Assembly (NCBI GenBank): GCA_021789555.1
Contig: JAJYJK010000006.1
Span: 1 to 36,444 of the forward strand
Direction of reading: 5' to 3'
Length of the DNA: 36,444 nt
Origin: Nitrospirota bacterium
GTDB taxonomy: Bacteria > Nitrospirota > Thermodesulfovibrionia > Thermodesulfovibrionales > JdFR-88
In this document: positions 24,087 to 27,616 of the stretch, in pieces
Layout of the letters: every line of letters begins with the position of its first letter
Numbering within the stretch: position 1 is the first letter of the stretch
Translations under genes and position numbers: made by a program
The notes under the pieces: generated by a model
Told to the model about the DNA's origin: nothing
Database searches by the model: none
The model's input: the letters and a program-made list of their open reading frames with translations, nothing else

Positions 24087-25133
24087 TTAAAAATACCTGA
24101 TTATATTATACCGGGTGTCACGCTGGGCGGGCCTGAAACCGGCAGCGGCGATGGCGGCAATGATATCATCCTTCGATACCTGGTAACTGACCCCGGCCGA
24201 GGCGACCACGTTTTCCTCTATCATCGTGGAGCCGAAATCATTCGCGCCGAACCGGAGGGCCACCTGCGCCATTTTCAGCCCCTGTGTGACCCATGAGGCC
24301 TGTATGTTGGGCACGTTGTCCAGATAGACCCTGGAGACGGCCAGGACCCTGAGATATTCGACCGCCGTCGCCTGCCCGCATTTCATCTGCTTTTTTAAGG
24401 CGGTATTGCCGGACTGGAAGCTCCACGGGATGAAGGCGGTAAACCCGCCCGTCTCGTCCTGAAGGGCGCGGACCGCATCCAGGTGCCCGACGATGTCCTC
24501 CGGGGTCTCGACCGAACCGAACATCATCGTGGCCGTCGTCTTCATGCCGAGCCTGTGGGCCTCGCGCATGACGGAGAGCCACCGGCCGGATTTTATCTTC
24601 TTCGGGCTGATCGCCTCCCTCACCCTGTCGGAAAGGATTTCAGCGCCGCCCCCAGGGACGGAGTCCAGCCCCGCGTCTTTTAAAATCGAGAGTGTCTCCC
24701 TCAGCGTAAGCGACGAACGCTCCGCGAAATATGCTATCTCCGGCGGCGAATACCCGTGGATATTTATGGCCGGATAGTTTCGCTTGATATCGCTCAGCAT
24801 CCCGATGTGGTATTCGAGTCCGAGCGCCGGGTTCAGCCCGCCCTGCAGCAGTATCTGCGTGCCGCCAAGCTCCAGGGTCTCGTCGATCTTCCTGAAAAGC
24901 TCCTCGCGGCCAAGCACATACGCGTCCTTTGCGTCTTCGCGCCTCCAGAAGGCGCAAAAGCTGCAACGGTTCAGGCAGATGTTCGTATAATTTATGTTCC
25001 GGTCGACAACGAAGGTCACGTCGCCTTCCGGGTGGAGGGCCTTGCGTCTGGAGTCCGCCATGCGGCCAAGCTCAAGGAGGTCCCCTTTTTTATCTTTAAG
25101 CAGCCGCAGCGCCTCTTTTCCACCGATACGCAT
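24087..25133 (-). CDS. mqnC: Cyclic dehypoxanthinylfutalosine synthase (radical SAM)
   Basis: MqnC cyclises dehypoxanthine futalosine in the futalosine route to menaquinone. The radical SAM cluster motif is C53-x3-C57-x2-C60 in NINYTNICLNRCSFCAFWR, the INYTNIC form being typical of MqnC. Further blocks are LGGTQILLQGGLNP, HGYSPPEI, SVPGGGAEILSDRVR, TTATMMFGSVETPEDIVGHL and DETGGFTAFIPWSFQSGNT. 348 residues, normal. It starts 2 bp after mqnE and is surely co-expressed with it. Menaquinone made this way would serve anaerobic respiration, in keeping with the multihaem cytochrome further along. Confidence 0.93.
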   Translation of the reverse strand: MRIGGKEALRLLKDKKGDLLELGRMADSRRKALHPEGDVTFVVDRNINYTNICLNRCSFCAFWRREDAKDAYVLGREELFRKIDETLELGGTQILLQGGLNPALGLEYHIGMLSDIKRNYPAINIHGYSPPEIAYFAERSSLTLRETLSILKDAGLDSVPGGGAEILSDRVREAISPKKIKSGRWLSVMREAHRLGMKTTATMMFGSVETPEDIVGHLDAVRALQDETGGFTAFIPWSFQSGNTALKKQMKCGQATAVEYLRVLAVSRVYLDNVPNIQASWVTQGLKMAQVALRFGANDFGSTMIEENVVASAGVSYQVSKDDIIAAIAAAGFRPAQRDTRYNIIRYF

Positions 25134-25135
25134 AC

Positions 25136-26188
25136 CTAGCGGAGTCTCCTGTATTTGAAATCTCTGCGGACAGGTCTCTTGCCCGCCTTCTCAATCATCA
25201 GCCTTATCTCCTCTTCTGCCAGGCCGGGCCTTGTGCGGGCCCCCGCGGAGTGGGCTATCTTTTCCTCTATGACCGTGCCTTCGAGGTCGTCGGCCCCGAA
25301 CCGGAGGGCCACCTGCGAGAGTTTTTCCCCCAGCATCACCCAGTAGGCCTTGACGTGGTCAAAGTTGTCCAGAAATATCCTGCTAACGGCTATGCATTTT
25401 AAGTCCTCAAGCCCGCTTGAAGGACGGCCGCCGATCTCATTGCCGGGCTGATGGGGCAGGGGGATGAACGCCTGGAACCCGCCTGTTTCGTCCTGGAGCC
25501 GCCGGAGTTTTTCGAGATGGGCCACCCTGTGCCCGTAGTTTTCGATATGCCCGTAAAGCATCGTGGCATTGGTCTTGATGCCTGCGTTGTGGGCCGCCCT
25601 CATGACTTTAAGCCAGTCCCCGCCGCCCATCTTTTCGGGACAAAGCGCCCCCCTGACGGCGGGGTCGAATATCTCCGCCCCTCCGCCGGGCATCACGTCC
25701 AACCCGCTGTCCTTCAGCATTTGAAGGATTTTATCCAGCGGAAACCCGCTTTTTTTACGCATGTAATCCACCTCGACCGCGGTAAAGGCCTTTATGCCCG
25801 TCCGCGGGAAGGCCTTCTTTATCGCCGCGAGCATCTCCAGATAATGTTCGAAGGGCCAGTCCGGATGAAGGCCGCCCACGATGTGCACCTCGTCAAAAAG
25901 ACGCACTTTTTTCAGCTTGGAGATGATCTGCCCGATCGTCAGCTCATAAGCTCCGGCCTCGCCCCTGGAGCGGCTGAAGGCGCAAAACCTGCACCTGTTT
26001 ACGCAAATGTTGGTGGGATTGATGTGTATGTTTCTTATGTAAAAAACCTTATTGCCGTTTTTCTTCTTCGCCGTTATGGAGGCAAGCTCGCCCAGGGTGA
26101 AGATATCATCGGACTTGAAGAGTTTCAGGGCCTGGGCGGGAGTGATCCGCCCCCCAGAGGCTATCTTATCGGCAAGGCCGCCGGACAT
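25136..26188 (-). CDS. mqnE: Aminofutalosine synthase (radical SAM)
   Basis: MqnE joins 3-(1-carboxyvinyloxy)benzoate to S-adenosylmethionine, forming aminofutalosine, early in the futalosine menaquinone pathway. The cluster motif is C62-x3-C66-x2-C69 in IHINPTNICVNRCRFCAFSR, the INPTNIC form of MqnE. FDEVHIVGGLHPDWPFEHYLEML, DVMPGGGAEIFDPAVR, TNATMLYGHIE and FIPLPHQPGNEI follow. 350 residues. On its own strand a TATAAT lies 6 nt before the ATG and there is no Shine-Dalgarno sequence, so its message may be leaderless. Upstream are four 22-bp tandem repeats. Confidence 0.93.
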   Translation of the reverse strand: MSGGLADKIASGGRITPAQALKLFKSDDIFTLGELASITAKKKNGNKVFYIRNIHINPTNICVNRCRFCAFSRSRGEAGAYELTIGQIISKLKKVRLFDEVHIVGGLHPDWPFEHYLEMLAAIKKAFPRTGIKAFTAVEVDYMRKKSGFPLDKILQMLKDSGLDVMPGGGAEIFDPAVRGALCPEKMGGGDWLKVMRAAHNAGIKTNATMLYGHIENYGHRVAHLEKLRRLQDETGGFQAFIPLPHQPGNEIGGRPSSGLEDLKCIAVSRIFLDNFDHVKAYWVMLGEKLSQVALRFGADDLEGTVIEEKIAHSAGARTRPGLAEEEIRLMIEKAGKRPVRRDFKYRRLR

Positions 26189-26292: not shown

Positions 26293-27426
26293 CTATTTCA
26301 GGGAGGGAAGGAATTTCGCCGTTTCAGTTTCTTCATCTTGTTCAATAAAGCATTGCGGGTCCTCGGAGAGGAAATCGGCCTCTCCCCTGGACATGGAGTA
26401 TGCATAGGCGATTGCGCGGCAGCCCCGGCAGGTGGCCCATCTGCGGCATGTCCCGCATCTCCCGCCGTAACGGCTCTTGTCGCGGAGAGCCCCCAGCACC
26501 GTCGAGGTCGCCCATACCTGTCTGATGGAATCCGTCCTGATATTGCCCAGGGGCAAAGGAAGCCTCCTGCAGGGTGTAATGGCCCCGTCGGCAAGGATCG
26601 TGAATCCGGATATCCCTGCCGCGCAGCCCCCGGCCGCGGTGCAGCCGGCGTCCGGATGGTTTTTGATGCTCATCTGAGAGGCCACTGGGTCTCCGGTCAC
26701 AATCTCCAGCCCGTCTATCTCCAGGGAGAGGAGGGTCTCATAGAGCTTTTTTACCTGCCCGGCGGGCAGCATCTCCCGGATAAGGCCGGAACCGCGCCCA
26801 TAGGGGACGAGCCTTGAAAACCCGAGTCTCTGGACGCCCATGCCAAGCGCAAGCGAGACCATCTCGGGCATCCGCCCGGCATTGAGGCTGGAGAGGGTGG
26901 AGTTCAGGGTAACGGTCAGGCCGGCGCCCAGAAGGTTTTTTACCCCCCACATCGCCTGGCTGAAACTGCCCCTGCCCCGGATGGAGTCATGGACTTCCTC
27001 TGGCCCCTCAACGCTTACCTGCACTGCCCTGACCCCGGCATTGACCAATGCCCTGGCCCTTTGCCTGTTTATGATCGTCCCGTTTGTAAGCACAAACACA
27101 TCAAACCCCTGAGCCCTGGCCTCGGAGATGATGTCGAACAAGTCGGCCCTCAGGAGCGGCTCGCCGCCCGTAATATTGAAGCTGGGCGAAAAATCCATCT
27201 GGTAGTTTTTCGCCCAGCTCCCCAGGGTATCCGAGATTTCGGCGATAACGCGGCCTATCTCCTTCAGCGAAAGGTCCACCCCGGCAGGCGTCTCTTTCCG
27301 GTCGGCCTGGTAGCAGTGCCTGCACCGGAGATTGCACCTTTCGGTCAGATGCCACTGGACAAAGAAATCATATTTGGCCGCCGGACCGGCGGCCTCGAGC
27401 TCTTCTAGCTCTTTCAACTGCTTCAT
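26293..27426 (-). CDS. Radical SAM/SPASM domain protein, coupled to a 36-residue peptide gene
   Basis: 377 residues. The radical SAM cluster motif is C31-x3-C35-x2-C38 in WHLTERCNLRCRHCYQ; NITGGEPLL follows. The C-terminus is a SPASM-type auxiliary-cluster domain: CTAAGGCAAG, ITPCRRLPLPLGNI, then CGTCRRWATCRGCRAIAYAYS and DPQCF. This layout is shared by haem/haem-d1 pathway enzymes (NirJ, AhbC, AhbD types) and by maturases of ribosomally made peptides. I choose ATG 27426, whose ATGA overlaps the stop of the 36-residue gene; a start at 27435 is also open. The tight coupling to a tiny gene favours a peptide maturase, but substrate and reaction are unknown. Confidence 0.85.
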   Translation of the reverse strand: MKQLKELEELEAAGPAAKYDFFVQWHLTERCNLRCRHCYQADRKETPAGVDLSLKEIGRVIAEISDTLGSWAKNYQMDFSPSFNITGGEPLLRADLFDIISEARAQGFDVFVLTNGTIINRQRARALVNAGVRAVQVSVEGPEEVHDSIRGRGSFSQAMWGVKNLLGAGLTVTLNSTLSSLNAGRMPEMVSLALGMGVQRLGFSRLVPYGRGSGLIREMLPAGQVKKLYETLLSLEIDGLEIVTGDPVASQMSIKNHPDAGCTAAGGCAAGISGFTILADGAITPCRRLPLPLGNIRTDSIRQVWATSTVLGALRDKSRYGGRCGTCRRWATCRGCRAIAYAYSMSRGEADFLSEDPQCFIEQDEETETAKFLPSLK

Positions 27427-27533
27427 TTGCGGCATATCTTCACGGGATTTTCCTTGAGTTGCCTCTTCAAATTGCCCCAGAAGATAGCCTCTTTCTCAAG
27501 CGTCCTGCTGTCGAGCGCCTTCACTTTCTTCAC
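27423..27533 (-). CDS. 36-residue Lys-rich peptide, candidate substrate of the adjacent radical SAM enzyme
   Basis: A GTG start at 27533 has a very strong ribosome site (GGAAGGAGGT at 27541-27550, 7 nt away). The 36-residue product is rich in Lys, Arg and Glu, with one Trp (FWGN, residues 18-21) and one Cys near the end (KICRK). Its TGA overlaps the ATG of the radical SAM gene as ATGA. Some radical SAM/SPASM maturases crosslink an aromatic residue to the residue two positions on (W-x-N among them), and WGN fits that pattern by eye. That is suggestive only. The frame is also open to a TTG at 27620 (65 residues), but the internal GTG has the better signal. It could instead be a small regulatory or chaperone peptide. 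Confidence 0.55.
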   Translation of the reverse strand: MKKVKALDSRTLEKEAIFWGNLKRQLKENPVKICRK

Positions 27534-27616
27534 CCCTGTCACCTCCTTCCCTGTGGTTTTTAAAATGCTATCAGGTACATCCGGGATGTCAAGCTTCCGG
27601 CCCAAAAAACAAAAAA

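Follow-up and report, generated by a model that had tools for sequence, protein, structure and literature searches.

A stretch of 36,444 nucleotides from a Nitrospirota bacterium (contig JAJYJK010000006.1; hereafter, the window) carries on its minus strand a very short gene immediately ahead of a gene encoding a radical SAM/SPASM enzyme, raising the question of what the short gene encodes and whether its product is the substrate of that enzyme. An earlier note on this DNA had described the short gene as a GTG-started reading frame of 36 codons with an ideal ribosome site, and the pair as having the layout of a peptide precursor with its maturase. The start and the ribosome site are real, the same or a similar site being found 5' of the peptide start in a comparison of 32 loci, but the TGA that follows codon 36 is not the end of the gene. 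Judging from the sequence comparisons set out below, this TGA and a second one, nine nucleotides apart, are very probably both read as selenocysteine (Sec, U), giving a peptide of 42 residues with two Sec (Table 1).

Table 1. Positions of the pair, its control elements and other genes mentioned in the text
Feature	Position	Strand	Basis or remark
Shine-Dalgarno AGGAGGT of peptide gene	27541..27547	minus	sequence
Predicted selenopeptide gene, GTG start at 27533, MKKVKALDSRTLEKEAIFWGNLKRQLKENPVKICRK-U-SS-U-KS, 42 residues, stop TAG	27405..27533	minus	frame and homologues
UGA 1, predicted Sec residue 37 (stop in the earlier note)	27423..27425	minus	TGA in 48/48 distinct genes
UGA 2, predicted Sec residue 40	27414..27416	minus	TGA in 48/48
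Predicted true stop TAG of selenopeptide	27405..27407	minus	equivalent codon varies in 48 genes
SECIS-like hairpin GGCCGCC-GGUCC-GGCGGCC, also inside enzyme frame	27376..27394	minus	35 nt from UGA 1, 26 nt from UGA 2
Radical SAM/SPASM enzyme, 380 aa from ATG at 27435, CNLRCRHC cluster and seven SPASM cysteines	26293..27435	minus	translation, alignment
mqnC and mqnE	24087-26188	minus	directly downstream of enzyme
SelD of the window's genome (L115)	G000:C66:13161-14087		own in-frame TGA
YceI genes	L089 6279-6806; L090 7884-8414; L099 5440-5973; L112 2282-2821; L113 7668-8195	as enzyme	PF04264
PEMT/ICMT-like methyltransferase genes	L094; L095 6033-6635	as enzyme	3' of enzyme

Conservation of the in-frame UGA codons

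A peptide profile with Cys at both UGA places was run over 396 Nitrospirota genomes with stops read through. It identified the peptide in 59 genomes, with one match in each (E 1e-11 to 1e-19), and all 59 matches contain exactly two TGA codons, with no Cys codon, TAA or TAG at either Sec position. Cys-coded homologues would match a Cys-bearing profile at least as well; such Cys counterparts are usual for bacterial selenoprotein genes but are no requirement. Neither TGA varies amongst the 48 distinct genes, although these were gathered with a pattern requiring both, so that the unbiased evidence is the 59-genome profile result. The third codon, the predicted stop, does vary amongst the 48 genes, being TGA in 25, TAA in 14, TAG in six and a sense codon in three.

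The DNA past the first TGA is still conserved, as K-TGA-x-[S/G/N]-TGA-[K/R]-S-stop, and the peptide C-terminus reads C-x-K-U-x-[S/G/N]-U-[K/R]-S-stop. The part of the peptide that is of chemical interest falls past the stop assumed in the earlier note. Codon changes between the TGAs are mainly AAG/AAA, AGC/AGT/TCC/TCG and GGC/GGT exchanges, mostly synonymous or swaps between S, G and N in the peptide frame. An apparent third conserved reading frame after the peptide (MKELKEL...) was rejected, as it is the Sec region in another frame.

Nearly all enzyme homologues have 5' of them a peptide of the form MKKxLSKKALxKEAAFWxxLKKxxKENPGKVC[HRQ]K, whose N-terminal part is basic with an invariant E and W (KEAxFW) and whose Cys and two Sec, residues 34, 37 and 40, make up a triad of three-residue repeats. 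The crosslink once suggested for a W-G-N (W-x-N) unit finds no support in this family, where W is invariant but the G-N that follows varies. Searches of NCBIfam, Pfam and PDB with the peptide gave no credible match, and Rfam gave nothing meaningful on the peptide region.

A SECIS-like hairpin downstream of both UGAs

The folding energy of the window's hairpin region is -23.8 kcal/mol (z -3.2). Of the 48 distinct genes, 47 carry a hairpin whose apical loop is GGU, L013 being the one without a clear example. The stem reaches at least 6 bp in 43 of the 48 genes, compared with 0.5% of shuffled sequences. Amongst 34 distinct hairpins, three of the six stem pairs vary on both sides and compensatory changes occupy 19 cells versus 5.1 in shuffles (0/500 shuffles as high), but cells are not the same as independent events and all these counts depend on hairpins chosen for their GGU loop, so the argument is carried by two other observations: stem pairing drops from 98% to 14–55% once the partner is slid, and the stem sequences are many and diverse (GTTGCC/GGCAAC, GTTGCT/AGCAAC, GGCCGCC/GGCGGCC, GGCTGCC/GGCAGCC and GGTCGCC/GGCGACC).

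The published spacing rule for bacterial SECIS elements places the loop 16–37 nt from the UGA (PMC13188914). In 39 of 47 genes UGA 1 lies 24–26 nt and UGA 2 15–17 nt from the loop; UGA 2 is at the 16-nt edge of the range in most genes and at 15 nt in one, whilst L007/L008, with spacings of 47 and 38 nt, fall beyond it. Two UGAs served by one hairpin, with the second near the edge of the range, is a demanding arrangement. Any third UGA of the common arrangement stands just 6–8 nt from the loop and can terminate translation since it lies too near the hairpin. All 25 TGA terminators are less than 16 nt from the loop; a third codon at least 16 nt away occurs in five genes and is TAG in each. These TAG codons would fit the distance rule, but the five genes are related to each other and the fit is suggestive only.

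Selenocysteine machinery

The window's genome encodes SelB (361 bits), SelA (584 bits) and SelD (333 bits) together with tRNA-Sec (73 bits). Across the genomes searched, which are mostly drafts, SelA is found in 55 of the 59 with the peptide and 119 of the 337 others (Fisher p 7e-18, uncorrected for kinship). No SelA match was found in four peptide genomes (G041, G331, G090 and G097) and no strong tRNA-Sec match in two (G003 and G009); these are probably gaps in draft genomes. The SelD gene of the window's genome has an in-frame TGA of its own, after MDIKLTSMSGCAG (SMSGCAG-U), and a hairpin follows.

The partner enzyme

The CxxxCxxC cysteines of the enzyme (C34, C38 and C41) and its seven SPASM cysteines (C271, C289, C327, C330, C336, C339 and C362) are invariant in 30 sequences. 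Amongst the NCBIfam matches listed, the enzyme is under every cut-off, the best score being 182.9 bits for AhbD (cut-off 500); TIGR04082 (SbtM) gives 136.1 bits (cut-off 350). When paralogues encoded in the same genomes were included in a tree, the enzymes associated with the peptide fell into one clade (support 100/99), separate both from SbtM and from a heme-b-synthase-like group, and with a Cys/Gly-rich-protein group as weakly supported sister (80/89). In this sister group (L019–L023) the enzyme directly follows the gene for a large membrane-type Cys/Gly-rich protein with the tail CSGCGGGGD and no UGA noted; the nearest named models for its enzyme are AhbD and ACGX (TIGR04340), with 183 bits against the ACGX cut-off of 400.

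The predicted fold of the enzyme has a pLDDT of 83, with very low confidence for the first 20 residues. The closest solved folds, amongst the matches listed, are mostly the peptide-modifying SPASM enzymes SuiB, SkfB, anSME and PqqE, at 16–22% identity to the SPASM maturases. Two of these, anSME and SkfB, have Cys residues as their targets.

At E 1e-50, 23 of 61 near relatives have a match to the enzyme, some of these matches belonging to the more distant Cys/Gly-rich group; at E 1e-80, 32 of 246 Nitrospirota genomes have one. A contig scan with the single enzyme protein matched near relatives only, and a plasmid collection gave no match.

Pairing and layout

The peptide is present in 31 of 32 enzyme-bearing genomes. 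It was not found near the enzyme in three, G064, G041 and G236, but in the last two it is encoded elsewhere, peptide and enzyme lying on different contigs and both being kept; G064 (L051/L106) is the sole genome of the 32 with an enzyme and no detectable peptide gene. The earlier note had named homologous enzymes without an upstream short gene as the observation that would count against the pairing; the gene is there, preceding the enzyme in different families and classes, and this conservation, the near-constant co-occurrence and the fold matches all uphold the layout of peptide precursor and maturase.

Two layouts are seen. L009 and the window's family have UGA 1 overlapping an AUG or GUG of the enzyme, whose frame crosses the hairpin; the loop positions (38, 35, 29, 50 and 29) share the value 2 modulo 3, which fits an enzyme frame kept through the hairpin. 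In the window the overlapping codon is an alternative enzyme ATG at 27426. Beyond the window's family, most homologues have an enzyme start that lies 100–300 nt further downstream. Tight coupling, as proposed for the pair, is therefore a feature of the window's family but does not extend to most others. The ATGA overlap on which it was based is present but is automatic, given the Lys AAA codon before the UGA, and becomes GTGA where Lys is AAG.

In the second layout an inverted repeat often lies between peptide and enzyme, many with a T-rich run behind, and such repeats fit a peptide produced in excess. Those of eight loci (L015, L016, L017, L018, L043, L044, L046 and L050) share the word AGATATG across genera, which exceeds the need of a plain terminator; the word is possibly a regulatory site or a dispersed repeat.

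Alternative explanations

Could the UGAs be ordinary stops, the product having 36 residues and the conserved stretch being an RNA element that controls translation of the enzyme? In the window's family the stretch does overlap the start of the enzyme gene and contains no stop in that gene's frame. The stretch is, however, equally conserved where the enzyme lies 100–300 nt later or elsewhere in the genome; its two TGAs are never TAA or TAG whereas the third codon does change; and the codon-wise changes in the peptide frame and the association with SelA also speak for translation, making this explanation very unlikely. Still less credible is that the enzyme belongs to the haem pathway, as an AhbC/AhbD/NirJ-type enzyme, with the short gene incidental. 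AhbD and NirJ2 are its top NCBIfam scores and, since haem-type SPASM enzymes are absent from the structural matches listed, the fold ranking alone does not decide the matter. Yet the AhbD/NirJ2-type scores are just 164–183 bits against 500-bit cut-offs, the enzymes have a clade of their own, the window's genome contains another gene, L130, that is AhbD-like (a member of its group, L126, scores 452 bits), and the enzyme is almost constantly paired with the selenopeptide. The haem role raised in the earlier note is thus not borne out.

A more serious alternative, albeit an unlikely one, is that the peptide works without modification as a small selenoprotein, its Cx2Ux2U tail binding a metal or Fe–S cluster or acting as a redox partner; in the redox-partner version the peptide delivers electrons or sulfur/selenium to the enzyme, whose substrate is something else. 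Spacing of the Cx2Cx2C type is what metal- or cluster-binding sites and redox motifs show, and the Cys/Sec triad could ligate a metal without modification; peptide and enzyme are also unlinked in G041 and G236; and most uncharacterized prokaryotic selenoproteins are thought to have redox functions (PMC13188914). Against this, the strict pairing, the leader-like peptide and the inverted repeats between the genes fit a substrate, and the closest solved folds amongst the matches listed are mostly peptide maturases. Pairing, layout and fold together make it probable that the pair encodes a selenopeptide of RiPP-like kind and a maturase dedicated to it.

Comparison with known systems

The nearest parallel for such a selenopeptide and maturase is SbtA/SbtM (TIGR04081/TIGR04082), likewise a short Sec peptide with a radical SAM/SPASM enzyme. 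This is reportedly a thio(seleno)oxazole system, described by Lewis et al. in 2021, in which SbtM modifies its Sec peptide. Matches to TIGR04081 have a signal-like N-terminus, and the motif given for the family is SGUG, in contrast to the KEAxFW leader and CxKUx[S/G/N]UKS tail seen here, and SbtM has ~540 aa with an N-terminal domain whereas the present enzyme has ~350–380 aa and no such domain. TIGR04081 does not match the window peptide and finds nothing in the window's genome; the two systems coexist at separate loci in G023, G026 and G048. Membership of SbtA/SbtM was rejected on profile scores, tree and co-residence. In Nitrospirota, TIGR04081 matches with SbtM-type neighbours occur at L120–L125, L132, L135, L136 and L139, some of them in genomes that also carry the present system.

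SuiB, SkfB, PqqE and anSME share with the enzyme the predicted fold, the SPASM domain and a peptide substrate (here a putative one), but their substrates lack Sec and an RRE/PqqD partner was not seen beside the pair. KCU-star/DUF466 and UXX-star are, like the present peptide, small selenoproteins with Sec near the C-terminus, but show no sequence match to it in NCBIfam or Pfam; DUF466 proteins carry just one Sec, at the terminus, and have homologues with Cys (PMC4607533).

In the databases and literature covered we found no family similar to this pair, which resembles the SbtA/SbtM type. No entry with the same motif or partner was found amongst those consulted in a 2026 inventory of 119 prokaryotic selenoprotein families and subfamilies, nor any paper on radical SAM with selenoprotein and SPASM in the literature open without subscription. 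A review lists the SbtA-type family, with two Sec and the motif SGUG, under the name selenobacteriocin, and has Sec-containing radical SAM substrates reported for one system, SbtA/SbtM (PMC13188914). If our reading is right, the present pair would be a second system of a radical SAM enzyme with a Sec substrate, one that is widespread in Nitrospirota. Published selenoprotein gene finders that work by Cys/TGA pairing may miss families without Cys forms, as acknowledged for one such method (PMC12013277), and the present family, which has none, points to this blind spot. Two UGAs per SECIS with a third UGA as stop would also offer a natural test of the Sec insertion distance rule.

Proposed mechanism

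Strongly supported by comparison is the opening step of the mechanism we propose, in which SelB would be recruited by the GGU-loop hairpin and Sec inserted at two UGAs, yielding a peptide of ~40 residues with the KEAxFW part followed by the C-x-K-U-x-[S/G/N]-U-[K/R]-S end. A third UGA, if present, would be too close to the hairpin for recoding and would end translation. We infer that the N-terminal part then serves as a leader to which the cognate radical SAM/SPASM enzyme binds, and that this enzyme would abstract hydrogen at the Cys/Sec triad and bring about an oxidative change, for example thio/seleno-heterocycle or thio/selenoether formation. The chemistry suggested for C34, U37 and U40 is a guess modelled on SbtM and anSME. 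More speculatively, the tail might be released, or might serve as a cofactor-like or metal/redox product.

Where the hairpin lies inside the enzyme frame and UGA 1 overlaps an enzyme AUG, as in the window's family, ribosomes that halt at UGA 1 under selenium shortage could start again on the enzyme. Taken as a whole—a second class, independent of the first, of selenopeptides that need selenium and are matured by a radical SAM enzyme, in which one SECIS recodes two UGAs and a third terminates, with the in-frame SECIS of one family switching translation to the maturase—the scheme is tentative, its chances falling a little short of even.

Neighbouring genes

No neighbour besides the pair is common to all loci. 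Conserved genes for a protease, an exporter or a leader-binding protein (RRE/PqqD) were likewise not found next to the pair. The outer-membrane barrel and small membrane protein that had been proposed as exporter or target can be set aside, as they stand beside the enzyme just in the window and at one locus of the same genus. At five loci from several families, a YceI-domain gene lies directly 3' of the enzyme gene, 10–50 nt away on the same strand, and may mark use of the product. Two other loci have there a gene for a PEMT/ICMT-like membrane methyltransferase, and in the window the enzyme gene is directly followed by mqnC and mqnE of the futalosine menaquinone pathway.
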